The notes under the pieces were generated by a model. It did no database searches. It was not told the DNA's origin and saw only the letters and a list, made by a program, of their open reading frames with translations. From NCBI RefSeq assembly GCF_004023665.1, contig NZ_SAUF01000005.1, forward strand, positions 372,001 to 436,000: a DNA stretch of 64,000 nucleotides. The letters run 5' to 3'. Shown piece by piece: positions 1-37,787 of this stretch (its first letter is position 1; the number at the start of each line of letters is the position of its first letter). The translations under genes and the position numbers were made by a program. This stretch comes from Afifella aestuarii. GTDB lineage: Bacteria; Pseudomonadota; Alphaproteobacteria; Rhizobiales; Afifellaceae.

Positions 1-3000
1 GGTCGCCGATGTAGACGGGAATCTCGCCGCCCTTGGCCTTGCGCACCGAGCGGCTGATTCCGCCGAGCGTGTCGAAGTAGTGATCGACGGTGGTCACGCC
101 GAGCTCGACCGATTCGAGGTTCTGGTAGGCGAGCTCCACATCGCTGAAGATCGTCTGCAGAAGATCGGCTTGCTGCTTGGGCGCGCCCTGGCGTCCGTAA
201 GCGAAGCATTTGCGCTTTGCGTAGGTGTCGGCGAGCTCGTCCTCGTCTTCCCATCGCCCGGAATCGAGCAGCATGTTGACGTTGGAGCCGTAGGCACCGT
301 CGGCGTTGGAGAAGACGCGCAGCGCGGCCGTCTCCAGGTCGCATTGATGCTCTTCCTGATAGCGCAGCGCGTGCTTGCGCACATAGTTCATTTCAAGCGG
401 TTCATCCGCCGTGGCGGCAAGATAGGCGGCCTCGGCGAGCAGCTTGGTCTGCAACGGCAGGAGGTCGCGGAAGATGCCCGATAGCGTCATGACGACGTCG
501 ATGCGGGGCCGGCCGAGATCTTCCAGGCGGATGAGAGCCGCCCCACAGAGACGACCGAAGCTGTCGAAACGCGGCCGCGCGCCGAGCAGCGCCAACGCCT
601 GGGCGATCGGACCGCCTTCGCTCTTCAGATTGTCGGTCCCCCACAGGACCATCGCCACCGATTCCGGGATCGGATGTCCGTCTTCGACGTATCGGTCGAG
701 GAGGCGCTTCGCCTGGCGCGCCCCATCCGTAACGGCGAACGCACTCGGCATGCGGAAGGGGTCGAAGCCATGCACATTCCGGCCCGTCGGCAGGATCGCC
801 GGCGTGCGCAGAAGATCGCCGCCGGGGGCAGGGCGCACGAAGCATCCGTCGAGCGCGTGGATGAGGGACGGGAGTTCGTGGTCTTCCGACAGGAGCTTGT
901 TGGTCGAGGCGAGCTCATCGAACAATTCGATGTTCGCGTCGTTCTCATCCATTCCGCCGACGACCAGAGCCTGCCGCGGCTGCCGCCCGGCAACGAGCGC
1001 CTCGACAGCGTCCTTCTCCGGCTTGGTGCCGAAACGGGCTTCAGCCACCGCGAGGAGGAGATCGGCACGCTCTTCCGCCGAAGGTGGCTCGCCGATGACG
1101 TGCAGTCCGTGCGGGATGAGGCTGTATTCGAGGTCGAGAATGGCCTCACTCAGCTTCGCCGTCTCCGCTGCGGGATCCTCCCAGGCGGGTTCCGGAGCCG
1201 CCAGGTCGAGCTCTGCGGCCTGAGCCTGAATGAGCGGGGCGAGCTGCTCGCGCTCATTCGTCTCGTCCGGCGGCAAAGCCCGCCAGCGGTCGAGAGACGC
1301 TTTGAGATCGAGAAGGCCGCGATAGAGCCCGGCCCGGGCCACGGGCGGCGTGAGGTAGGAAATCAGTGTTGCTGCGGAGCGCCGCTTGGCAATCGAGCCT
1401 TCTGACGGATTGTTGGCCGCATAGAGATAATAGTTCGGCAGATCTCCGATCAGCCGGTCAGGCCAGCAGGCATCCGAGAGCCCCGTCTGTTTGCCGGGCA
1501 TAAATTCGAGCGCGCCGTGCATGCCGAAATGCAGAACCGCGTCGGCACGGAAATCTTCGCGCAGATACCGATAGAAGGCGGAGAACGCGTGCGTCGGAGC
1601 AAAGCCCTTCTCGAAAAGCAGCCGCATCGGATCGCCTTCATAGCCGAAGGCCGGCTGCACACCGACGAAGACATTGCCGAGCTGAACGCCGAGCACGAAG
1701 ATCGAGCTGCCGTCGCTTTGTTGCCGTCCGGGCGCCGGGCCCCACTGCGCTTCGATGTCCTTCAGATAGCGCTCGCGCCTCACGTGATCGTCGGTCGCGA
1801 TGCGATCATGCACATTGGCGTCCGTGCCGTAGCGGCTCGCATTGCCCTTCAAAATCATGTCGCGCAGGGCATCGACGCTTTCCGGCACGTCGACCGTGTA
1901 ACCCGCTTCCTTCAGGGATTTCAGCGTGTTGAAGAGCGAATGATAAACCGAAAGGTAAGCGGCGGTGCCGGTGCTGCCAGCGTTTGGTGGGAAGTTGAAG
2001 AGAACGACGGCGAGCTTACGCTCAGCGCGCTTCGTGTGACGAAGCCTGACGAGCTTATCGACACGCGAGGCGAGCATTTGAGCGCGTTCTGAATGCGCCT
2101 GCATGTCGCGCGTTTGTTCGGCATTCTCCGAACGACCGCCGAAGAGCATCGGTCCGGTTGCCCCGTCGAGTTCCGGGATCGCGACCATCATGGTCGTTTC
2201 GACCGGAAGAAGGCCGCGGTCAGACCCATCCCATTGCTCGAGCGTCTGGAACTCGACAGCCTGTGCCGAAATGTAGGGAACGTCGAGATGCGTCAGCATC
2301 TCTTCGGCCGCCTTGGCGTCGTTGTAGGCGGGGCCGCCGACGAGCGAGAAGCCCGTCAATGAAACGACGGCATCGACGACCGGGCGTCCGTTCGGCGTGA
2401 AGAAAGCTTCAACCGCAGGGCGGCTGTCGAGACCGCTCGAATAGGCCGGCACCACCTGCAGGCCATGGGCCTCCAGGGCGTCGATCACAGCGTCGTAATG
2501 CGCCGTGTTTCCGGCAAGCACATAGGACCGCATGATGAGGAGGCCGACACGGCCCTTGCGCTCCTTCGACGGGGAGGGCAGGGCTTCCAGGCGCTCCGTG
2601 ATGCGTCCCTTGAGCCTCGGATGATAAAGTCCGACCTCCGGATAATGGACCGGCGGCTTGGCCTTCAAATGGTGGCGCAGCTGCTTGCGCGGGCCCTCGG
2701 CGTAACGCTCGACGAGAAGCCGCACCATGTTGACGATATTGTCTTCCGAACCGGCGAGCCAGTACTGCAGAACCAGGAAGTAGGCGCGAACATCCTGGGC
2801 CGTGCCCGGGATGAACCGCAGGAATTGCGGGATTCGGCGCAGCATCGCCATCTGCTTGGCGCCGGAATTGGCGGCCTGCTTGGCGCCTTCCTTGTCGCGC
2901 TTGTCCGAGCCGCGAAGCCGCTTGAGAAGGGCGAGCGCGCCGCCTTGCGAGCCGTCCATCTTGAAACGGCCGATGCGGGTGAGGCGGATCACTTCGCCGG

Positions 3001-3316
3001 CCGACATGAAGCCGACGATGGCGTCGCATTCGTCCTGCCGCGCCTTCAAGGCCGGCATCACCGCCTGAATATGGTCTTCCATGAAGAGCATATTGGCGAG
3101 GATGATATCGGCCTCGGCGATGTCGGCCTGGCACCGGCCGAGCGCAGTCGCATCGTCGCCCCATTCGGTGGCGGCGTGCAGATTGAGCGTGAGACCGGGG
3201 ATCTCTTTCTGAAGAATCGGGCGTGCGCGCTCGACTGCGCTCGCCAGATGGCTGTCGAGTGTCACGATGACGACGCGCAGAGGCGTCGCGTTATCGGCCG
3301 AAATGGGCTTTGGCAT
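1..3316 (-). CDS. bchH: Magnesium chelatase subunit H (partial, 3' end outside window)
   Basis: Large porphyrin-binding subunit of the Mg-chelatase (with BchI and BchD), which inserts Mg2+ into protoporphyrin IX as the first committed step of bacteriochlorophyll synthesis. An open minus-strand frame of 1105 codons runs off the left edge; the family is about 1200-1300 residues, so the C-terminus is missing. The start is an ATG at 3316 giving [20 protein letters not shown], followed by the N-terminal HxxH-rich CobN-type region; [18 protein letters not shown] about two thirds along is a recognisable BchH/CobN core motif. The start lies inside the end of bchB (26-bp overlap), so translation is probably coupled. 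It is the fourth gene of a bchF-bchN-bchB-bchH operon; bchL and bchM would be expected just outside the window, by analogy with other purple bacteria. Confidence 0.95.
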
Positions 3317-4874
3317 CGTAGAGTGTCTCAACTGTAATCGTCGCTAAGCCGCGTTCTTCGGCGAAACGTTCGGTATTGCGGCGCGCCTTGCCGCGGACGA
3401 AGAACGGTATTTTGCGCAGTTCCTGCTCCGCTTCTGCCGCCCAGGTGACAGCTTGGACGACACTGGCAATCTCAGCCTTTTCGATCTCCGTTTCTTTGAT
3501 CTGAGTCTGGTCTGGCGCCGGTGCGGCGCCGTGCCCCAGATGCGACGGCTGGACCTCGTCGTGGAATTCGAAATCGCCGCGGAACATGCCGAGAAGGTGT
3601 TCTTCGAGGCCCATCATCAAAGGATGCACGAAGGTGTCGAAGATCACATTGGCGCCTTCGAAACCCATCTGCGGCGAATAGCGTGCCGGAAAATCCTGGA
3701 CGTGGACGGGCGCCGAGATGACTGCGCAGGGCACACGCAGCCGCTTTGCGATATGGCGCTCCATCTGCGTGCCGAGAACGAGCTCGGGATGAAGCTCTGC
3801 CACCTTCTCTTCGACTTCGAGATAGTCGTCGGTGATGAGCGCTTCGACGCCATAGCTTTCGGCGGCGGCGCGCACGTCGCGGGCGAATTCACGCGAATAG
3901 GTGCCAAGGCCTACGACCTTGAAGCCGAGCTCCTTGTCGGCGATGCGCGCGGCTGAAACGACATGCGTCGCATCCCCGAAGATGAAGACGCGCTTGCCGG
4001 TGAGATAGGTCGAATCGACGGAGCGTGAGTACCACGGAAGACGCGATGGCGCGCCCGCGAGAACGGCGGTGGGATCGACGCCTGCGATCTCGGCGACTTC
4101 CTTGATGAAGTCGATTGTCGCGCCGAAGCCGATCGGGACCGTTTTCGTTGCCGGCTGGCGGAACGTGCGGGTGAGCCAACCGGCGGCCGTTTGCGCAATT
4201 TCCGGATAGAGCACGACATTGAAATCTGCCTCTCCGAGTCGCGCGATATCGGCCGGAGTGGCGCCGAGCGGCGCCGTCACGGCGACATCGATGCCGAGGC
4301 GGTCGAGAAGTCGGGTGATCTCCGCCACATCGTCGCGGTGCCGAAAGCCGAGAGCGGTCGGTCCGAGCAGATTGCACCGCGGCCGGCGGCCTGCGTCCCG
4401 GGGCGGTCGTTCCGTGCCAGGCGCCGGCGCATGCGGGCCGGCGAGGGCGCGAACGAGATGATAGAAGGTCTCCGAGGCGCCCCAGTTTTCCTTCCGCTGA
4501 TAGGATGGCAGTTCCAGCGGAACGACGGGGATCGGCAGGGCCAATGCTTTGGCAAGGCCGCCCGGATCGTCTTGGATGAGTTCCGCCGTACATGACGCGC
4601 CGACCAGCATCGCCTGCGGCTGAAAGCGCTCATACGCATCGCGTGCCGCGTTCTTGAAGATCTCGGCCGTATCTGTGCCGAGGTCGCGCGCCTCGAAAGT
4701 CGTGTAGGTGACCGGTGGGCGTTTGTTGCGCCGCTCGATCATCGTGAAGAGAAGATCGGCGTAGGTGTCGCCCTGCGGTGCGTGCAAGACGTAGTGGATG
4801 CCTTCCATGGCGGTGGCGATGCGCATCGCTCCGACATGCGGCGGCCCTTCATAGGTCCAGACGGTGAGCTGCAT
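3291..4874 (-). CDS. bchB: Light-independent protochlorophyllide reductase subunit B
   Basis: BchB of the dark-operative protochlorophyllide oxidoreductase, a nitrogenase-like enzyme that reduces ring D of protochlorophyllide. With BchN it forms the catalytic NB tetramer fed by the BchL iron protein. The 527-residue product begins [20 protein letters not shown]; Asp36 (in APQGDTY) matches the aspartate known to be the unusual fourth ligand of the NB [4Fe-4S] cluster, and Cys in the VGASCTAEL segment is the conserved downstream cysteine. A longer in-frame start exists 14 codons upstream, but the ATG at 4874 has a strong GGAGG six bases ahead and begins where the family begins. It starts one base after the bchN stop and overlaps bchH, so the operon is translationally coupled. 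Confidence 0.96.
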
Positions 4875-4875
4875 C

Positions 4876-6677
<1,802 letters not shown>

Positions 6678-6714
6678 CGCGCCCCGTCTCCCCAACCGGC
6701 ACAACGTAAGACCG

Positions 6715-6772
6715 ACTCTAGGGCTGCCGCTCGGCGACTGTCAACAACACTAGACGTAAATCTCACTTTACA
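6715..6772 (-). promoter_or_regulatory. Predicted bchF promoter with two adjoining PpsR-type operators
   Basis: Two near-consensus PpsR/CrtJ operators (consensus TGT-N12-ACA) lie side by side upstream of bchF. Read on the plus strand, the first runs TGTC-N10-GACG at 6739-6756; the second, read on the minus strand, is TGTAAA-N6-TTTACG at 6772-6755, so each misses only the last base. On the minus strand the first box contains a perfect -35 TTGACA (6744-6739) followed after 18 bases by TAGAGT (6720-6715) as a possible -10. A repressor bound here would cover the -35. The divergent aerR gene may share this control region. Confidence 0.6.
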
Positions 6773-6941
6773 TTCCGCCGAGCCGAGGCGTACGCTCCGG
6801 CTCTATCGCTGAGGGACCGAAAGTGCTTAAACTCGCGCGTCGAAAGGCGGAGGTCTGAGGCCTCCATCCGGAGCCGCTGCCGGGAAGGTGAAGCGGTGCA
6901 ATATCCGTTTTATGGCCAGTTTGAGCTCGGGGGTGCGAGAG

Positions 6942-7844
6942 ATGGTCGACATTAGGCAACACGCTGAGGACCGCTGCGGAAGCTGGGACGTAAATAGGCC
7001 ATGGGAAGATGTCCCCATGCGCTCGTTCCCGGTCTCAGACATTGAGGCGGCTTCCAGCGAGAGCGCCTGGAGTGGCCGTATTCTCACGACGATCGAAGGT
7101 GAGATCATCCCGCGGTTGATGCTGGCCCACCGGGTCGGGTGGGGAGAGCCGCATCTCAATTGCGTTGAGGGAACTGGCGTCGACGCGGTTGATATCGACG
7201 AATTCGCCCGTCTTTTGCTGGCGCGTGATGGGAGCGTCGCCTTCGCTTATGTGGATATGGCACGCGCGCGCGGTGTCGGGCTCGAGGCACTTCTGCTCGA
7301 GCTGATGGCGCCTGCAGCAGCGCGGCTTTGGGATTTCTGGAACGATGATCGCTGCGATTTCGCCGAGGTGACCATCGGCATGTCGCGGCTTCAGCACCTT
7401 TTGCGGGAGCTCGGCCCGGCCTTTTACAGCCAGTCAGCCGATTGCGGCGACGGACGGCGCATCCTGCTCGCCTCTGCACCGGGCGAGCGGCATTCCTTCG
7501 GCATCTTTTTGACGGAGGCTTTCTTCCGTCGCGGCGGCTGGGATGTATCTGTGGAACTCGATGCGAACCCCGCCGATCTCGTTGGAACCGTCAAGCGCGA
7601 GTGGTTTTCGATGGTCGGGTTGTCGCTGTCGAGCGCGCGTGGAATCGACGATCTGGCGGCGACGATAAAGGCGGTCCGTCTGGAATCTCGTAACAAATCC
7701 ATCGCTGTAATCGTTGGTGGACACATTTTTATGGAGCATCCAGAGCTTGTCGCGTTGGTCGGGGCCGATGTAGGAGCGACGGATGCGCGCAGTGCAGTAT
7801 CGCAGGCCGAGCGTATGCTCGGGCTTCTAGCTATGCGTTGCTAA
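6942..7844 (+). CDS. aerR: Cobalamin-binding antirepressor AerR/PpaA
   Basis: Member of the AerR/PpaA family, known in Rhodobacter to bind B12 and relieve repression of photosynthesis genes by CrtJ/PpsR in the light. The middle has the helical cap signature WNDDRCDFAEVTIGMSRLQ and is followed by a Rossmann-like B12 domain with GERHSFG, where the His (about residue 184) would be the lower cobalt ligand; GGHIFMEHPELVALVGAD fits the far end of that domain. The start is uncertain: ATG 6942 is preceded by GGGGG at a usable distance, but GTG 6888, ATG 6912 and ATG 7017 (weak GGGAAG upstream) are also possible. It lies 34 bases ahead of ppsR1 in the same direction, the usual arrangement for an antirepressor with its repressor. 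Confidence 0.85.
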   Translation: MVDIRQHAEDRCGSWDVNRPWEDVPMRSFPVSDIEAASSESAWSGRILTTIEGEIIPRLMLAHRVGWGEPHLNCVEGTGVDAVDIDEFARLLLARDGSVAFAYVDMARARGVGLEALLLELMAPAAARLWDFWNDDRCDFAEVTIGMSRLQHLLRELGPAFYSQSADCGDGRRILLASAPGERHSFGIFLTEAFFRRGGWDVSVELDANPADLVGTVKREWFSMVGLSLSSARGIDDLAATIKAVRLESRNKSIAVIVGGHIFMEHPELVALVGADVGATDARSAVSQAERMLGLLAMRC

Positions 7845-7878
7845 TGATTCATGCCTGATGCGGGACTAAGTGCAACAG

Positions 7879-9327
7879 ATGGACGGCTTGGTTACAAAAT
7901 CAGCCCCAAGCGAGTTCTCGGTCCCGCATAAGTCGGTCGGCGACCTGGACGCCGAGATCGCCGGAAAGCTAATCGCCCACGCGGCAGATATTGCCCTTGT
8001 CCTGGACAAGGAGGGCGTCGTTCAGGATCTCGCCTTCGGCGACGAAGAATTCTCTCACGAAGGCGTTTCAGACTGGGTTGGAAAGGCCTGGCGCGATCTT
8101 GTCACGGCCGATAGCGAAAAAAAGGTTGCGGCTCTTCTGAGCGAGGCGGGTGCGAAAGGCGTTTCGCGCTGGCGCGAGGTCAATCACCCTTCAAACCGTG
8201 GCGCCGACGTGGCCGTCCGTTATTTCGCGATGCAGGTGGGCGGTGGTGAGCGTTACATCGCGATCGGTCGCGATTTGCGTCCCGTGTCCGCGCTGCAGCA
8301 GAGGCTGATTGAAGCGCAGGTGGCGCTGGAGCGAGAATATTCGCGCCTGCGGCAAGCCGAGACACGCTACCGCCTGTTCTTCAAAATGGCCTCTGAGGCC
8401 GTCTTGATCGTCGATGCCAACAGCCAGAAGGTCGTCGAGGTCAATCCCGCCGCCAGCGGGCTGCTCGACCAGTCTCCGGAGCAGCTTGTCGGGGCACCGC
8501 TGCGCAGGCTCTTTTCCGACGAGTCGGAGCGCGCCGTGCAGGCGCTGCTTGCGATGGTGAGGGCTGCCGGTCATGCTGAAGATGCGCGCGTGCGGCTTCC
8601 TTTTAGCGAGCAGGAGTGCGTTCTCTCCGCTTCGCTTTTCCGGCAGGAATCCTCGGCCCATTTCCTCATCCGCCTGTCGCCGGTCGACGGCGAGAGAGTG
8701 AGGCAGGATGCCGGGACGACCTCGCTTCTGGTCGATATCGTGGAGCATCTGCCCGACGCTTTCATCGTGACCGACCCCGACCGGCGGATCCTGGCGGCCA
8801 ACATCGCTTTTCTTGATCTGGCGCAGACCGCGAGCCTCGAGCAGGTTCGTGGAAAGCGCTTGGAGCGTTGGGTCGGGCGGCAGGGGATCGAACTCGACGT
8901 TCTCATCGCCAATCTGCGCGAACACGGCTCGGTTCGGCATTTTCGGTCGATCCTGCGCGGTGAATACGGCTCTGTCGTCGATGTCGAAGTTGCCGCGGTA
9001 TCGGTGCTCGAGGGGGAGCAGCCCTGCCTCGGTTTCGTTCTTCGCGATGTCAGTGCGCGGGTGGAAAGAGAGCGCCCGGCGGCGAGGCAATTGCCCCGCT
9101 CGGTCGATCAATTGACGGAACTCGTCGGCCGCGTGCCCCTCAAGGATCTCGTGCGCGAAACCACCGACGTGATCGAGAAGCTCTGCATCGAGGCGGCCCT
9201 TGAGCTGACCGGCGACAACCGCGCGTCGGCGGCCGAAATTCTCGGTCTCAGCCGGCAAAGCCTCTATTCGAAGCTTCGCCGGTACGACCTCGTAGATTTT
9301 ACGCCGGAAAGCGGCAGCGACCACTGA
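7879..9327 (+). CDS. ppsR: Transcriptional repressor of photosynthesis genes PpsR/CrtJ, copy 1
   Basis: Redox- and light-responsive repressor of bch, crt and puc genes. Layout of the 482-residue protein: N-terminal PAS (about 30-130), a long Q-linker helix (about 135-165), PAS1 (about 167-267), PAS2 (about 282-392) and a Fis-type helix-turn-helix at the end (ETTDVIEKLCIEAALELTGD then ILGLSRQSLYSKLRRY). Three cysteines are present: C247 in PAS1, C383 in PAS2 and C436 in the DNA-binding helix; two of them sit where the redox cysteines of Rhodobacter PpsR lie. A GTG three codons upstream (7870) is an alternative start, and neither has a good ribosome site. Likely co-transcribed with aerR; its probable operators are upstream of bchF and bchG. 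Confidence 0.93.
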   Translation: MDGLVTKSAPSEFSVPHKSVGDLDAEIAGKLIAHAADIALVLDKEGVVQDLAFGDEEFSHEGVSDWVGKAWRDLVTADSEKKVAALLSEAGAKGVSRWREVNHPSNRGADVAVRYFAMQVGGGERYIAIGRDLRPVSALQQRLIEAQVALEREYSRLRQAETRYRLFFKMASEAVLIVDANSQKVVEVNPAASGLLDQSPEQLVGAPLRRLFSDESERAVQALLAMVRAAGHAEDARVRLPFSEQECVLSASLFRQESSAHFLIRLSPVDGERVRQDAGTTSLLVDIVEHLPDAFIVTDPDRRILAANIAFLDLAQTASLEQVRGKRLERWVGRQGIELDVLIANLREHGSVRHFRSILRGEYGSVVDVEVAAVSVLEGEQPCLGFVLRDVSARVERERPAARQLPRSVDQLTELVGRVPLKDLVRETTDVIEKLCIEAALELTGDNRASAAEILGLSRQSLYSKLRRYDLVDFTPESGSDH

Positions 9328-31722: not shown

Positions 31723-34026
31723 ATGCGTAAAATAGCGGCCTCCTTCGCGGATATGTTCCGAGGCAAGGCGACAAAACACGGCCGAACGGTCGCATCAGCA
31801 CAGCCCCTCGAAGAAACATCAGCCCGCGAAACCGCGCCCGCAACGACGCCTCAGGTGATCGAAGCCGGCCGCGAGGCAATCAAGAAGGCTTCCCCCGCCA
31901 AGGAGAAGAAGGTCAAGGCCGCAAAACGGCAGAAGAAAGCGGCTCGCTCCATTCCAAGCCGGCGCGGCTCGATTGCGGGCGACCAGACGATCGCGGTCTT
32001 CGTCACCTTTGTCGGGCTGATCACGGCGGCACTGACCGCTGGCGTTGTGTATTTTTCTGCCGACGAGCTCTATTCGAAATATGTGCGATCGGAGGCGCTC
32101 GAGCGCGCGACCTTTGCGGCAGGCCGACTTCAGGAGACAGGTCTGCAGGACAGGGATGGCAGCATCTCTTCTGGAGAGAATGTCGCCCTTAAGACAATCC
32201 TGGCGATGCCCGATGTCTTCCGCATAGAGGTGTTCAACCGGGCGGGTGAGCGCGTCCGAGAGTTGAGTGATGCGCCGGGCGGTGCAGAGATTGCTCCCAT
32301 TGGTCGCGATGAGGCGCGCACGCTCGTCGAGGCAGGGAAGGGTGCGCTAAGCTGGCAGGACCGCCATGCCGAGGAAGGCGCGGGGCCGTCCTATTACAGC
32401 CGTACCCTGGTGCCGATCGAGGATGCAGACGGAAACGCCGACGGCGCGATCGCGGTCTATCTCGACCACAGCGCCGATGAGGCGGGTTTCTGGCAGTGGC
32501 TGACAGGAATTCTCGGGACCATCCTGGTGCTGGCGCTCGTCGCCTTCACGATCCCGGCGGTCAGCCTGCTCCTTCGCACGCGTCAGAAGCGCGAGGTCTA
32601 TGAGGAACTCACCTATGTGAGCGGTCACGATACGCTGACGGGCCTCAGCAATCGCGACGAATTCCTGAGGACGCTGGAGGTCGAAATCCGGCGTCAAAGC
32701 GAAGAAGGACATCATCTCGCCCTTCACTACATCGACATCGACCGCTTCAAGGAAATCAACGACACGCATGGCCATGCTGCAGGCGATGAATTCCTGAAGC
32801 AGGTGGCCGAGCGGTTACGCGATGTCGTGGAGAAGCCCCAGTACCTTGCGCGGCTCGGTGGCGACGAATTCGCCATCATTCAGCTCGAGGCCGGCGGCAC
32901 CAAATACGCGGAAATCCACGCGCGACGTATCGGGTCCGCTCTCAACGGCGTCTACAAGGTCGGTGACGGTGAGAACAACGAAGTCGTCGCGAGCGCCTCG
33001 ATCGGGATCGCGGTATCCCCGGAGCACGGCGAAAACGCCAACGAGCTCCTGAAGAATGCCGACCTCGCCTTGAACAAGGTGAAGGCGGGCGGACGCAACG
33101 ATATCTCTGTGTTCACCACGGAGCTGACCACCTCGATGCAGGGTCGTCTGGAAATGCAGGCGATTCTCCGCAAGGCCTTCCGAGAGAAGTGGTTCGTCCT
33201 CTATTTCCAGCCTCAGTACGATCTCGTGACGCGGCGCCTCACAGGCTTCGAGGCGCTCCTTCGGCTGAAACATCCCGAGCGCGGCGTCGTCTCACCCACG
33301 GAGTTCATTCCGGTTGCGGAAGAGACCGGCCTCATCGAGCCGATCGGCGAGTGGATTTTGAAGGAATCATGCCGTGCGGCAAGCCTTTGGCCGGAGCATT
33401 TGACTCTGGCCGTGAACCTATCGCCCGCACAGTTCAAGAAAGGCAACTTGCCCCGTTTGATCGCCAAGACATTGAAGCAGACTGGGCTCAAAGCGGACCG
33501 CCTCGAGGTGGAGATCACCGAAGGTCTGCTTTTGGAGACGTCTAATCGTGTGCTGTCGCAGCTTCGCGAGATCAAGAAGATGGGGGCCGCCCTCATCATG
33601 GACGATTTCGGTACCGGCTATTCAAGCTTGAGCTATCTCTGGCGGTTCTCTTTCGACGGCATCAAGATCGACCGCTCCTTCGTGCACGGTGTGGGCGTCG
33701 GCGGGCAGGTGGAGAAGCTTCTGCGTTCCATCATCAGGCTCGGCATTTCGCTCGACCTCAAGGTGACCGCCGAGGGCGTGGAAAGCGCTCAACAGGCACA
33801 TTTCCTCGTCGCCAACGACTGCCGCAACGTCCAGGGCTTCCTGTTCGGCTGGCCGGTTCCGAAGGACGAAGTGGCAACCGTGATTGCCAAGGACATTCGC
33901 GTAGGAACGCGTGCCGCCCAAAAGCGGCATGAGGCGAAGAGGCTCGAGGCGCAAGCGGCAGGCAATGAGTCAGCGAACGCGCAAGCGCCCGAGGAGGGTG
34001 TGCGCAAGAGCCGGAACGCCGCCTAG
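31723..34026 (+). CDS. Membrane-bound GGDEF-EAL protein (c-di-GMP turnover)
   Basis: A 767-residue protein likely to make and/or break cyclic di-GMP. Order: Lys/Ala-rich cytoplasmic start (1-85), membrane helix (about 89-111), periplasmic sensor region (about 112-255), second membrane helix (about 259-284), GGDEF domain (about 293-465) with intact GGDEF at 379-383, and EAL domain (about 480-735) with EAL at 510-512, NLSPAQF, MDDFGTGYSSLSYL and KIDRSF. Both active sites look complete; I see no RxxD inhibitory site at the usual place before GGDEF. The end is charged and low-complexity. A hairpin lies 25 bases after the stop. Confidence 0.93.
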   Translation: MRKIAASFADMFRGKATKHGRTVASAQPLEETSARETAPATTPQVIEAGREAIKKASPAKEKKVKAAKRQKKAARSIPSRRGSIAGDQTIAVFVTFVGLITAALTAGVVYFSADELYSKYVRSEALERATFAAGRLQETGLQDRDGSISSGENVALKTILAMPDVFRIEVFNRAGERVRELSDAPGGAEIAPIGRDEARTLVEAGKGALSWQDRHAEEGAGPSYYSRTLVPIEDADGNADGAIAVYLDHSADEAGFWQWLTGILGTILVLALVAFTIPAVSLLLRTRQKREVYEELTYVSGHDTLTGLSNRDEFLRTLEVEIRRQSEEGHHLALHYIDIDRFKEINDTHGHAAGDEFLKQVAERLRDVVEKPQYLARLGGDEFAIIQLEAGGTKYAEIHARRIGSALNGVYKVGDGENNEVVASASIGIAVSPEHGENANELLKNADLALNKVKAGGRNDISVFTTELTTSMQGRLEMQAILRKAFREKWFVLYFQPQYDLVTRRLTGFEALLRLKHPERGVVSPTEFIPVAEETGLIEPIGEWILKESCRAASLWPEHLTLAVNLSPAQFKKGNLPRLIAKTLKQTGLKADRLEVEITEGLLLETSNRVLSQLREIKKMGAALIMDDFGTGYSSLSYLWRFSFDGIKIDRSFVHGVGVGGQVEKLLRSIIRLGISLDLKVTAEGVESAQQAHFLVANDCRNVQGFLFGWPVPKDEVATVIAKDIRVGTRAAQKRHEAKRLEAQAAGNESANAQAPEEGVRKSRNAA

Positions 34027-34081: not shown

Positions 34082-34300
34082 TCACGCCAGACGATAGACC
34101 CGGCTTATCTCGCTCAAAAGCCCGAGGCGTATGAGCTCACCCAAAGCCTCCGAGCGTTCTGGGATTCCCCGTGCAGAGCGCCAACCTTCGGCCGCCGCAA
34201 GCTGCTCATCCGTTAACGTCACAACGACCTTGTGAACGGTCTCAGATGTCTGCGACGCCAATTCCTCGCCCACAGCCCAGCAGGATTTTTTTGGTGGCAT
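34082..34300 (-). CDS. Small ribbon-helix-helix (CopG-like) protein
   Basis: A 72-residue protein with a likely ribbon-helix-helix fold: strand HKVVVTLTDEQ, helix LAAAEGWRSARG and helix ERSEALGELIRLGLLSE. Such proteins bind DNA as dimers. AGGGGC lies ahead of the ATG. No toxin gene lies beside it, so an antitoxin role is not supported. It sits downstream of the phytochrome response regulator on the same strand, with a FixJ-like site in the gap. Confidence 0.65.
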   Translation of the reverse strand: MPPKKSCWAVGEELASQTSETVHKVVVTLTDEQLAAAEGWRSARGIPERSEALGELIRLGLLSEISRVYRLA

Positions 34301-34458: not shown

Positions 34459-35064
34459 TCAGCGCATCATCCGGATGAGATCTGCAAGCCCGCGGGCCTC
34501 GAGTTTCTCTCGAATGCGGGCGCGGTGTATCTCGACCGTGCGTTGGCTGATGCCGAGCTCGACCGCAATATGCTTGTTGGTCATGCCGAGGACGAGGTGA
34601 TCGAGAACCTCACGTTCTCGTCCGGTCAATCGGGCCAGCCGCTCCGAGACGATGTGCGGTGGCAGCTTCGAAGATGGGCGGTTTGCTAGCTGGTCGGATG
34701 CGGCGCGGATCGCGCCGAGCAGTTGCTCTTCCGAGCCGGGTTTTTCGATGAAGTCGACCGCACCGTTCTTCATGGCTTCGACCGCGAGCGGGACATCACC
34801 GTGGCCGGTCAGGATCACAACAGGGATCCCGATGCCATGTTCGGCCATCGTCTTCTGCAAATCCATGCCGCTCAGACCGGGCATTCGCAAATCGATGAAC
34901 GCGCACAGCCCCTTATCGGCGTCGGCAGCCTCGAGAAAACTCTCGGCGGAGGGAAATGCCTCGGTTTCAAATCCGTGCGCGGAGAGAAGGGCGCCGAGCG
35001 AATGACGGACGGACATCTCGTCATCGACGATATAAACCACTCTGCCGCGGGCGGCGTCACGCAT
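34459..35064 (-). CDS. FixJ-like response regulator with LuxR-type DNA-binding domain
   Basis: A 201-residue two-component regulator. The receiver domain (about 8-122) has the acidic pair in YIVDDE, the phospho-acceptor Asp58 in FIDLRMPG, TGHGDVPLAVEAMKNGAVDF and the Lys of IEKP, all close to FixJ. The C-terminal LuxR/GerE domain (about 138-200) reads LARLTGREREVLDHLVLGMT then GISQRTVEIHRARI. Its start overlaps the end of the phytochrome gene by eight bases, so the two are translated together and it is almost certainly the phytochrome's partner. Known phytochrome partners are often single-domain CheY-like proteins; this one can bind DNA itself. Confidence 0.92.
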   Translation of the reverse strand: MRDAARGRVVYIVDDEMSVRHSLGALLSAHGFETEAFPSAESFLEAADADKGLCAFIDLRMPGLSGMDLQKTMAEHGIGIPVVILTGHGDVPLAVEAMKNGAVDFIEKPGSEEQLLGAIRAASDQLANRPSSKLPPHIVSERLARLTGREREVLDHLVLGMTNKHIAVELGISQRTVEIHRARIREKLEARGLADLIRMMR

Positions 35065-37342
35065 CGTCTGGATCCGTAATTCTCAGGGTGAAGACGAAAG
35101 TTGCGCCTTCGCCGTTTTCCTGCATCCAGAGCCGCCCGCCGTGGGCTTCGACGATGGAGCGGCAGAGCGACAGGCCGAGTCCCATTCCGCTTGTGGTCGA
35201 GTTGTGAAACGGTTCGAAGAGCGTGTCTTCCATTTCTTGCGGGACGCCTGTTCCAGTGTCGCAGATGCTGATCTCCGCCATCGGCGAGGCATTGCGGATC
35301 GATAACGTCAAGCGCCTTATCTTGCTACCGGCCATCGCCGTGATGCTGTTGCGTGCGAGGTTCAGGATGACCTGAACGATCTGCACGGGGTCGGCGGATA
35401 GAGGAGGGATATCGTCGGCGAAATCAAAGACGATCTCGGGGCGAGGTTCGTTGCTCGCGGCGAGGGCGAGCTCGACCCCTTGCCGTACCACCGCTTTGAG
35501 ATCCACCCGCTCCACGGTGATCTCTCGTTGACCGATGAAATTGCGCAGACGGCGGACGAGGTCTGCAGCGCGCGCCGATTCGCTGACGGCGCTCTCCATA
35601 AGGCCACCGATATGGTCAGGCACGGCAATCCCGTGATTGCGCAGCTCTTGCCGGGATGCGTTCACGTAATTGCTGACGGCTGAAAGGGGCTGGTTGAGTT
35701 CATGCGCAAGTGCTGAGGCGAGTTCGCCCATCGAACGATCTTGCGCCGCATCCATCAGCATCAGCCGCAGCCGCGCCTCTTCGGCCTCCGCCCTGCGCAT
35801 CGCCGCCGTTGCGGCGCGCTCGCGATCGAGACTGTTGATGGCAAAGAGCGCGCGCCGCGTGATGCGGAGGATCTCGCCATCGGTTTCCGTAAACGGCTGG
35901 CTGTGTCCGCGCCGCTCTTCAAGCCACAGCGCGAAGGAACCCCGGGGAGACAGGCGCGTCGAGCCGTCTTCCTTGCGGATCTCGATCTTCTCGGGCTTGC
36001 CAGCCCATCGGATCGTCTCGCTGAAGGCTTCCCGGAAAAGAATGAGCCAGTCGGACCGATCTTCGGAGAGCTCCATCATCGCGGCGCCGGCGATATCGTT
36101 TCCGAGATTGTCGACGCCAAGGAGTTCATGCAACTGATCGCAGGTCGCGATCCCACTCGACATTCTTGCAGCCAGCGGGGCGTAGTTGAAATTGCCGACA
36201 GGGACCTTTCCGATAGCCAAGACCTCGTCAGCGAGCTTCAAAAGCATGCCCTGCGCGCCCAGCTGGTTGAGCAGGTCGTCTGCATGCGCCTCGATAGTTT
36301 CGCGCAACGGCTGGCCGCTTCGAGCCTCGCTCTCAATCGCAAAAGCGGTTTTCTCCGCACAAATACTGGCGCGCAGCTGGCTGGTGTTTTCCAGGCTATG
36401 CAGCAGGGCGGAGATGGTCCCGCCGATCAGCTCACAGGCTCTCAATCTGCTCCAGGACAATTCGAGCGGGCTATAATTGTGGCAGGCGACAAGGCCCCAC
36501 AGCTTGTTTTCGGAAATAAGGGAGATCGAGACGCTGCCCGCCACTCCCATATTGTTGAGGTATTCGACATGCACCGGCGCGACCGCGCGGAGCTTCGAAT
36601 AGGTGAGGTCGAGAGGAGCCTGAGACCCGGCATCCGCGACAGTGCCGCCGCGCGTCATGATGGGAACGGGCTCGGCGTTGATGTCCGCGATCACGCGGAT
36701 CACGTTGCGCACGAAATGGCGCCGAGCCGGATCGGGAATGTCGGATGCAGGATAGTGGAGGCCGAGAAAGCTGTCCGGACGCACGGTGCTTTCGGCAATC
36801 ACCTCGCCGTGCTGGTCCGCCGCAAAGCGGTAGATCATCACGCGGTCGAAGCCCGTCGCCTCGCGCAAGATCTGTGCGCCGACTTGTGCGAGATCTTCGA
36901 GGGTATCAGGGATGATCAGTTCGGAAATGACCCGCTGCCGCAGGACTTCGTCGTCCCAGACGCTGCCTGAGCGGCTTTCGGGGTGGACGAACTCCAAAAC
37001 GAGCCAGTCACCGCAGCGGTGCGGAAAGCATTCGAGTTCGACGGGCTCACCGTCGACAGAGGGAATCTGGAGCAGGGCGGGTCGGAGAAGATCGGGCGCT
37101 GTTGGAGCGAGGCGTCGCGCCAAAAGTGCTTCGCAGCCGTCCGCGCCAAGCAGCTCTGCCAGAGGCAGTCCCAACAGGGAGGGATAGTCTCTTCCGAAAT
37201 AGGCGCGTGTGTTGGTGCTGGCATATTCGATCGTCAACGAGCCGGCGTCGACTGCGATGAGACAGCCGATCGGCTGGATCGCACCGATCATGTGAATAGG
37301 CTCTGTGTCGCAGGCGCTGAGATCAACCGGACTGTTCAGCAA
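35057..37342 (-). CDS. bphP: Bacteriophytochrome histidine kinase with FixL-like transmitter
   Basis: A 761-residue red/far-red photoreceptor. PAS domain (1-125) with the biliverdin-binding Cys11 in LSACDTEPIH; GAF domain (about 140-320) with PASDIP at 198-203 and chromophore-pocket histidines H258 and H288; PHY domain (about 325-505) with the tongue motif PRGSF at 466-470; then a coiled linker and a histidine kinase with phospho-acceptor H547 in ALAHELNQPLSAVSNYV, N-box VILNLARNSITAM, and G-boxes in CDTGTGVP and GMGLGLSLCRSIVEAHGG. The kinase half is closer to FixL than to usual phytochrome kinases. Followed by an overlapping FixJ-like regulator and divergent from ppsR2, as with the BphP-PpsR pairs of Bradyrhizobium and Rhodopseudomonas that derepress photosynthesis genes under far-red light. 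Confidence 0.94.
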   Translation of the reverse strand: MLNSPVDLSACDTEPIHMIGAIQPIGCLIAVDAGSLTIEYASTNTRAYFGRDYPSLLGLPLAELLGADGCEALLARRLAPTAPDLLRPALLQIPSVDGEPVELECFPHRCGDWLVLEFVHPESRSGSVWDDEVLRQRVISELIIPDTLEDLAQVGAQILREATGFDRVMIYRFAADQHGEVIAESTVRPDSFLGLHYPASDIPDPARRHFVRNVIRVIADINAEPVPIMTRGGTVADAGSQAPLDLTYSKLRAVAPVHVEYLNNMGVAGSVSISLISENKLWGLVACHNYSPLELSWSRLRACELIGGTISALLHSLENTSQLRASICAEKTAFAIESEARSGQPLRETIEAHADDLLNQLGAQGMLLKLADEVLAIGKVPVGNFNYAPLAARMSSGIATCDQLHELLGVDNLGNDIAGAAMMELSEDRSDWLILFREAFSETIRWAGKPEKIEIRKEDGSTRLSPRGSFALWLEERRGHSQPFTETDGEILRITRRALFAINSLDRERAATAAMRRAEAEEARLRLMLMDAAQDRSMGELASALAHELNQPLSAVSNYVNASRQELRNHGIAVPDHIGGLMESAVSESARAADLVRRLRNFIGQREITVERVDLKAVVRQGVELALAASNEPRPEIVFDFADDIPPLSADPVQIVQVILNLARNSITAMAGSKIRRLTLSIRNASPMAEISICDTGTGVPQEMEDTLFEPFHNSTTSGMGLGLSLCRSIVEAHGGRLWMQENGEGATFVFTLRITDPDDA

Positions 37343-37787
37343 ACGGCCGTACCCCTTCGAAACGGTGTGACGTCAGCTCTTCCACGCAGGGCGGCCAAGC
37401 GACGCATCAAGACGGCGAAATTGCGCGGACGGAGGCTCAACAGCAACCCCGCGAGGGACAAAAGTGCGACACCGGGACACATGGTACAAACGAGTGGCCA
37501 AAGTTCGATTCTCTCGAATCTGCCGGTCTATTGGGATCTGGAGCCTTTGAAGCCAGGCGTTGCATCTGAAAAGCACTGTCCGTTGCGAAGCCCGGGATCC
37601 CGGGCACGGATATCTGCCCTGCAATAGGCCCCCGGAAATGTTGCACGTCGGCACTGGACAAACCCTTCATAAAGGGAAACGCTCCCAAGAACATGCGTCT
37701 TGTCAACGTGCACTGGACGGTTTTTTCCAGATCGCCGCGAACCACGGCGCTTTCGCTCGACATCCGGCTTTCGATCGTTGAACTCAG
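37343..37787. other. 445-bp divergent intergenic region between bphP and ppsR2
   Basis: Control region for the phytochrome and the second ppsR. No exact TGT-N12-ACA operator was found; the closest is a TGT-N13-ACG at 37711-37729, one base too wide. No small gene is supported. Confidence 0.45.

Follow-up and report, generated by a model that had tools for sequence, protein, structure and literature searches.

Which output does a bacteriophytochrome serve when its photosensory module is joined to a kinase resembling that of the oxygen sensor FixL instead of the kinase usual for phytochromes, and when its gene lies close to a photosynthesis cluster? This question is raised by a gene pair of Afifella aestuarii, consisting of the phytochrome gene bphP and the gene of a FixJ-type response regulator. 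The pair lies in a window of 64,000 nucleotides, which is the whole stretch of DNA analyzed here (G000:C5:372001-436000, where G000 denotes the 3.9-Mb genome of the window; Table 1). A preliminary description, made from the letters of the window alone, had read the pair as an oxygen-sensing FixLJ output that was rewired to red/far-red light. The analysis reported here suggests that anoxygenic phototrophs probably have in it a natural two-component switch for red/far-red light, which would act on photosynthesis genes via FixLJ-type parts, in the role of BphP1-PpsR2, and would be a natural counterpart of the engineered circuit pREDusk.

Sensor kinase, regulator and linker

Both open reading frames were confirmed at the positions given in the preliminary description. 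Pfam assigns the domains PAS_2 (residues 11-118), GAF (148-299), PHY (339-501) and HATPase_c (651-755) to the sensor, and a HisKA match at residues 538-602 reaches 26.4 bits, marginally below the cut-off of 26.9. Cys11 and the motifs PASDIP and PRGSF, which mark a bacteriophytochrome photosensory module, are all present, so that the complete PAS-GAF-PHY module of the preliminary description is borne out. Full-length bacteriophytochromes are the top matches of the sensor in a PDB sequence search and full-length phytochromes rank first in a fold search with its structure model. Conservation was followed in a set of 24 genomes of Afifella and other, mostly Hyphomicrobiales, bacteria, from which duplicates (L153, L154, and L163) had been removed before counting. 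Nineteen of 20 checked sensor and kinase residues are invariant in all 24 genomes, the exception being the N of the H-E-L-N-Q motif, and the biliverdin cysteine is kept in all 23 orthologues that extend to this position. Pocket residues follow what we take to be the DrBphP numbering. Compared with 32 other phytochromes, the photosensory part forms a separate lineage (15 rows, support 100) on a stem of length 2.0. Neither Pfam nor the structure model revealed a PAS domain, haem-binding or other, between PHY and HisKA. The model (mean predicted local distance difference test score 77.9) places helices at residues 486-533 and 537-569, whose join is of low confidence (scores below 50 at residues 526-546).

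The NCBIfam profiles divide the protein into two parts: the BphP profile matches residues 4-527 (228.8 bits, cut-off 1040), and the FixL profile NF041777 matches only the kinase part, residues 523-756 (185.4 bits, the whole-protein cut-off of 850 not being reached). Of the three candidates scored in the genome of the window, this phytochrome matches the FixL profile best. A kinase-domain tree was built with 111 rows, after L002, L006, L015, and L042 had been removed as duplicates, and in it the 15 phytochrome kinases of this type form one clade (support 100 in the Shimodaira-Hasegawa-like approximate likelihood ratio test), situated inside a branch of FixL and FixL-like kinases (support 98). 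Nine of ten ordinary BphP kinases fall outside that branch, and the tenth, the long-branched kinase of A. brasilense, takes an uncertain position near the base of the tree. A single clade with seven ordinary BphP kinases was rejected by the approximately unbiased (AU) test (log-likelihood difference 140, p = 9.2e-5), which was run on 80 rows after removal of 31 of the 111, either as long branches, including three of the ten BphP kinases, or by thinning. Identity of the kinase is at most 45% to haem-FixL kinases (median 39%), a label given by a motif of our own built from what we take to be the haem-PAS residues, and at most 32% to BphP kinases. By sequence, the kinase is thus a member of the FixL/FixL-like family and not a usual phytochrome kinase, as had been suggested at the outset, and the H-E-x-x-Q motif, described for YF1 in the outline of PMC6798134, is conserved in 24 of 24 genomes. 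The phytochrome is not a true FixL, as judged from the missing haem PAS and a score below the FixL cut-off.

The regulator gene follows bphP in every one of the 24 genomes. Pfam finds Response_reg and GerE in its 201-aa product, i.e., a receiver with its phospho-acceptor Asp and a GerE helix-turn-helix, which agrees with the earlier view of a FixJ-like partner carrying a LuxR-type domain rather than a CheY-like one; behind the control BphPs that lie on plasmids and have an annotated regulator, six in all, a single receiver domain is found. The outcome named in the preliminary description as refuting it, namely grouping with the usual kinases and regulators, was therefore not observed. FixJ (NF006900) is the best NCBIfam match at 224.6 bits, followed by TtrR at 158.6 bits, and 1yio and FixJ (5xso) lead the PDB sequence search. 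Asp58, Asp15, and Lys108 are invariant in the 24 genomes, Asp14 is replaced by Glu in five and Thr86 by Ser in one. As its score lies below the FixJ cut-off of 255 bits, the regulator is, on this measure, not a true FixJ. In a tree from which ten rows and all partial regulators were left out, and which was rooted on a very long outgroup branch, a set of 15 stands apart from 63 FixJ and FixJ-like regulators (support 99). No other regulator of the window's genome is more than 35% identical to this one, and there is consequently no obvious cross-talk partner.

The proposal that an oxygen-sensing FixLJ pair was rewired has fared less well than these assignments. No supported branch of the tree identifies a sister of the phytochrome-kinase clade within the FixL-like family, the regulators and their FixJ scores stand as given above, and many non-haem kinases likewise have FixL-like domains and FixJ-like partners. 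An AU test also rejected the clade and the haem-FixL kinases as a single clade (p = 9.9e-5), a result which is uninformative because a single clade of the haem-FixL kinases alone is rejected by the same data (p = 2.1e-5), and which does not decide on descent from an oxygen sensor. The 8-bp overlap of the two genes was confirmed, and coupled translation is possible; the overlap itself says little, as its length is commonplace. The start codon that produces it is present in 14 of the 24 genomes, and overlaps of 8 bp are also found in the bphP/response regulator pair of D. radiodurans and in fixL/fixJ of S. numidicum. As a mark of special coupling it was therefore rejected. An AAGGGG sequence, read by eye, lies at 37352-37357, nine bases upstream of the TTG start of bphP.

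The spacing between the Arg of PRxSF and the phospho-acceptor His is 80 residues in all 24 genomes. Among the ten control BphPs, eight were measurable, and the spacing was found to be 66 in six of them (D. radiodurans, two Azospirillum, Sinorhizobium sp. B11, L024, and L029), 73 in D. aquaticus and 56 in P. aeruginosa. The excess over the usual controls amounts to 14 residues, or two heptads. Expressed as W483-H532, a measure adopted from the outline of Meier et al. (PMC11164954) and taken here by eye from ungapped rows, the linker has a length of 63 in the clade and 49 in DrBphP. Natural linkers are placed within about ±10 of DrF1 and DmF1 in the summary of that work; by sequence comparison, the clade linker lies beyond this cluster, yet in the same heptad register. 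A natural heptad insertion is seen in the phytochrome of Deinococcus aquaticus (L138), where a LERSNAD unit occurs twice and 73 equals 66 plus 7.

Association with photosynthesis genes and a second PpsR

The surroundings of the pair, namely an adjacent second ppsR, the photosynthesis cluster and a haem oxygenase gene in relatives, were, like the fixed linker length, not part of the preliminary description. The whole phytochrome shares 92% identity with that of Afifella marina and 51-69% with those of 13 further loci, so that it is no chance reading frame, and orthologues are also present in three more genomes assigned to the genus of the window. A scan of named genomes with two peptide patterns only, which gives a lower bound, identified 14 orthologous loci. 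These loci come from Afifella marina, Afifella sp. IM 167, two Aquibium and Chelativorans, as well as metagenome-assembled genomes labelled Mesorhizobium, Rhizobiales, Hyphomicrobiales, Rhizobiaceae, Salaquimonas, Anderseniella (two), Alphaproteobacteria, and Anaerolineae. Anaerolineae was rejected as a host, since the locus in question (L049) is the same stretch as that of G393, which groups beside G148 in the class of the window; the contig filed under this name (L049/L163) is probably mislabelled or mixed. Among 385 genomes of the class, one genome besides that of the window has a full-length orthologue. Orthologues were found in 12 of 397 genomes of the order, representing 8 of 141 genera (E <= 1e-100), and two carriers exist among 17 genomes of the order of G148.

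In the genome of the window, pufLM are located 46-47 kb from bphP, and positions 2-9327 of the window hold the end of the photosynthesis cluster with bchH (cut by the window edge), bchB, bchN, bchF, an open reading frame (ORF) of 318 aa without NCBIfam match, and the first PpsR. All 12 carriers of the order possess pufLM, compared with 75 of the 397 genomes sampled (Fisher's exact test, p = 9.7e-10; by genus, 1.5e-5), and so do the two carriers from the other order. When 40 genomes were compared as a smaller set, pufLM were present in all 14 carriers and in 4 of the 26 others. In 8 of 14 cases, bphP and pufLM lie together on one contig at a distance of 21-47 kb. Two PpsR matches were found in 12 of 14 carriers and in none of 30 phototrophic non-carriers (p = 4.3e-9; by genus, 1.5e-6), the genomes in all of these tests being related, so that the Fisher values overstate independence. 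The non-carriers are the first 30 of 63, with Rhodopseudomonas and Bradyrhizobium not knowingly among them; 29 have one PpsR and one has none. The carriers with a single PpsR are G435 and G393, the contig of the latter beginning inside bphP, and the second match of G425 lies below the cut-off. Two further genomes, G559 and G604, which belong to the genera of G000 and G425, have neither the phytochrome nor a second PpsR.

A divergent ppsR adjoins bphP in 18 of 22 evaluable loci, L049 and L052 ending too early to be judged. Its identity to the window's protein is at least 50% in nine loci (the window counted), 36-40% in five and 31-36% in four. Three of the distant ones reach 180-214 bits on TIGR02040, which is under the cut-off, and match no full-length family better. 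In 16 of 23 loci a haem oxygenase-like gene is situated between ppsR and bphP; all four that were checked pass the Pfam cut-off, and two gave no NCBIfam match. Besides the window, the loci without such a gene are those of A. marina, G501, L050, L053, L056, and G425.

Some neighboring or related sequences were recorded in addition. On the far side of the regulator gene, a GGDEF-EAL protein gene is located at 31723-34026(+), an arrangement also found in A. marina, and a 72-aa ORF without NCBIfam match (34082-34300, minus strand) lies immediately downstream of the regulator. The genome of the window contains a second phytochrome (L001, G000:C1:868720-870267) whose kinase is of the HWE type and which carries a fused receiver, and the gene upstream of it is weakly similar to bphO (29% identity). 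Other phytochromes beside ppsR occur in L027 and L032; Pfam detects a PAS domain after PHY in L027, which by its sequence is probably of the BphP1-PpsR2 type.

Table 1. Window coordinates of the phytochrome-regulator locus and of both ppsR genes.
Feature	Position	Strand	Evidence or remark
bphP, PAS-GAF-PHY bacteriophytochrome with FixL-type HisKA/HATPase kinase, 761 aa, TTG start	35057..37342	-	Pfam, NCBIfam
Photosensory module, residues 1-501; biliverdin Cys11 codon 37310-37312	35840..37342	-	Pfam PAS_2, GAF, PHY
FixL-type kinase, residues 515-757; phospho-acceptor His547 codon 35702-35704; H-E-L-N-Q motif	35072..35800	-	NCBIfam FixL profile, tree
FixJ-type response regulator, receiver and GerE/LuxR helix-turn-helix, 201 aa; Asp58 codon 34891-34893	34459..35064	-	Pfam, NCBIfam
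Overlap of bphP stop and regulator ATG, 8 bp	35057..35064	-	
Divergent ppsR, second PpsR of the genome	37788..39182	+	TIGR02040 331 bits, cut-off 275.4
ppsR-bphP intergenic region	37343..37787	.	no TGTN12ACA box
Candidate operator core TGTCCAG, inside TTTGTCCAGTGCCGAC	37654..37660	-	
Weaker second copy of the TGTCCAG word, CGTCCAG	37713..37719	-	
First PpsR of the genome, beside bchFNBH	7870..9327	+	TIGR02040 497 bits

Proposed signaling route and alternatives

PpsR binds DNA at the consensus TGTN12ACA. Between ppsR and bphP, in intergenic regions whose ends were placed by eye, this box occurs in 8 of 18 cases, two of the eight being near-identical sisters; 0.77 would be expected from mononucleotide shuffles, and none of 500 shuffles was as high. 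In all six regions that hold both, TGTCCAG begins 24 bp ahead of the PpsR-type box. Read by eye, the box overlaps a possible -10 element (TTACAC), with TTGCCG or TTGAAG 17 bp upstream, and TGTCCAG would, from this promoter layout, occupy the position of an activator. A motif sampler applied to 15 intergenic regions at width 22 scored 163, with at most 141 in shuffles, the real set having been given more restarts and iterations.

From these arrangements we infer a course for the light response, the phosphotransfer, the DNA targets and the sign of the response. Light would isomerise the biliverdin bound at Cys11, and the signal would travel along the helical linker, whose length exceeds that of most ordinary phytochrome kinases by exactly two heptads. 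The FixL-type kinase, in which H-E-x-x-Q would serve as the kinase/phosphatase motif, would load phosphate onto Asp58 of the regulator or unload it. The phosphorylated regulator would then act on DNA, its first target most likely being the divergent promoter region that bphP has in common with the dedicated second ppsR, and its action there would tune the photosynthesis genes. As the linker is in heptad register with both DrBphP and the engineered DrF1, net kinase activity would be expected in the red-absorbing (Pr) state and would be reduced by red light, provided that Pr is the dark state.

A more specific version, which we put forward only tentatively, would see the locus as a third, undescribed phytochrome route. 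A portable module of second ppsR, haem oxygenase (where present), phytochrome-FixL and FixJ-type regulator might use light, via the phosphorelay, to control transcription of both the second PpsR and the module from a common promoter, with regulator and PpsR sites fixed 24 bp apart. It might represent a natural pREDusk with a linker longer by 14 residues, outside the cluster of about ±10 given for natural BphP kinases.

Several observations weigh against a switch for photosynthesis genes or against parts of this route. Four of the 22 evaluable loci (L051, L054, L055, and L162) have no adjacent ppsR; in L162, the locus of G435, a ppsR lies about 5 kb away, and G435 is one of the two single-PpsR carriers. 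The ppsR beside bphP in G425 (L156:8412-9437) consists of two overlapping pieces in different frames and may be shortened, frameshifted or an assembly error. The bphP-adjacent ppsR genes are split into sets of 12 and 6 rows (support 87) and do not form a well-supported single clade. The relatedness of the carriers was mentioned above. The locus of the window itself has no haem oxygenase gene, the genome having one elsewhere, and the TGTN12ACA box is absent from the intergenic region of the window and from those of its two nearest relatives. TGTCCAG is likewise absent from the outer loci L157-L161, whose regulators share similar recognition helices, and a genome search with the TGTCCAG element gave 29 matches with up to three mismatches, compared with 15 for the reversed control, and no set of sites at photosynthesis genes. 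Finally, engineered linkers that share one register behave differently, as outlined in PMC11164954 and PMC12582566.

Among the alternatives, the phytochrome could bind the neighboring PpsR directly in a light-dependent manner, as RpBphP1 does with RpPpsR2, the kinase and the regulator serving another purpose or little purpose at all. The divergent ppsR in 18 of 22 loci and the extra PpsR indeed mirror the BphP1-PpsR2-PpsR1 layout as outlined in PMC10569730, PMC3899966, and PMC6899989. We regard this as unlikely, as the protein lacks the PAS9 and HOS output that RpBphP1 has: Pfam finds no PAS after PHY and the model shows a straight helix, whereas L027 has the extra PAS. The active sites of kinase and regulator are, moreover, intact in 24 of 24 genomes, and the four evaluable loci without an adjacent ppsR keep the regulator.

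Quite unlikely, in our estimate, is an ordinary phytochrome two-component system for some other light response, such as stress, motility, or haem or bilin economy, whose tie to photosynthesis would reflect shared descent and position only. The relatedness of the carrier genomes, the adjoining GGDEF-EAL gene in the window and A. marina, and the lack of a regulon of sites at photosynthesis genes would be in line with it. However, presence of the phytochrome tracks phototrophy in a second order as well as over the 8 genera sampled in the first, and it also tracks the second PpsR; in two genera (g1 and g285), a phototroph without the phytochrome also has no second PpsR. That a true FixLJ descendant still serves micro-oxic genes (fixK, cbb3 oxidase) under light instead of oxygen is very improbable, despite the 39% median identity of the kinase to haem FixL and FixJ as the regulator's best NCBIfam match, as kinase and regulator lie outside the FixL or FixJ core in trees of poor resolution, the haem PAS is lost, and the neighbors are ppsR and bilin genes instead of the fixK or ccoN found next to fixLJ in L131 and L132.

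Comparison with known systems

The phytochromes known from phototrophs act by direct binding to PpsR or on light-harvesting genes via separate relays. The known link between phytochrome and PpsR is direct binding via PAS9-HOS, as outlined in PMC6899989 and PMC10813442, and Rhodopseudomonas and Bradyrhizobium are summarized as having two PpsRs together with BphP1 (PMC10569730, PMC3899966). No natural phytochrome-FixL/FixJ pair was found described in the titles and abstract openings of the open-access literature searched, subscription papers lying mostly outside this scope, so that the negative carries little weight. A kinase and DNA-binding regulator inherited with an extra PpsR would be another solution to phytochrome control of photosynthesis. 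As Afifella can be cultured, the link between light color and the repressor is directly testable. For optogenetics, the 24 genomes offer 24 natural answers, all longer by 14 residues, to a linker problem which in engineering is addressed by manual screening, and the regulator pair is likely orthogonal to FixLJ.

With the FixL-FixJ oxygen pair, the locus shares the kinase family, a receiver-LuxR regulator, the gene order and, in the case of S. numidicum, the 8-bp overlap; it differs in having no haem PAS, in scores under the FixL and FixJ cut-offs, and in its neighbors. The type 1 BphP kinases (DrBphP, Azospirillum, Sinorhizobium) likewise possess PAS-GAF-PHY and a continuous helix into a HisKA kinase, but their kinase belongs to another family, their linker is 14 residues shorter and their partner is a single-domain regulator instead of a DNA-binding one. 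The BphP1-PpsR2-PpsR1 system of Rhodopseudomonas and photosynthetic Bradyrhizobium, with a type 3 BphP, resembles the locus in that phytochrome and second ppsR are neighbors within the photosynthesis cluster or close to it; there, as far as the outlines of PMC6899989, PMC10569730, and PMC3899966 indicate, PAS9 and HOS bind PpsR2, whereas here a kinase and a DNA-binding regulator are found and PAS9 is missing. An engineered circuit of haem oxygenase, phytochrome-FixL and FixJ is already known in outline (PMC9594775, PMC12582566, PMC11164954, PMC9614035). Its form pREDusk/DrF1-FixJ, as summarized in PMC9594775, combines a phytochrome and FixL-type kinase with a FixJ-type partner and has haem oxygenase in the operon, as do 16 of 23 natural loci. 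In contrast to that circuit, the system described here is natural, its kinase comes from its own branch of the FixL family and not from B. japonicum FixL, its linker is 14 residues longer, and it has its own regulator and, presumably, its own targets.

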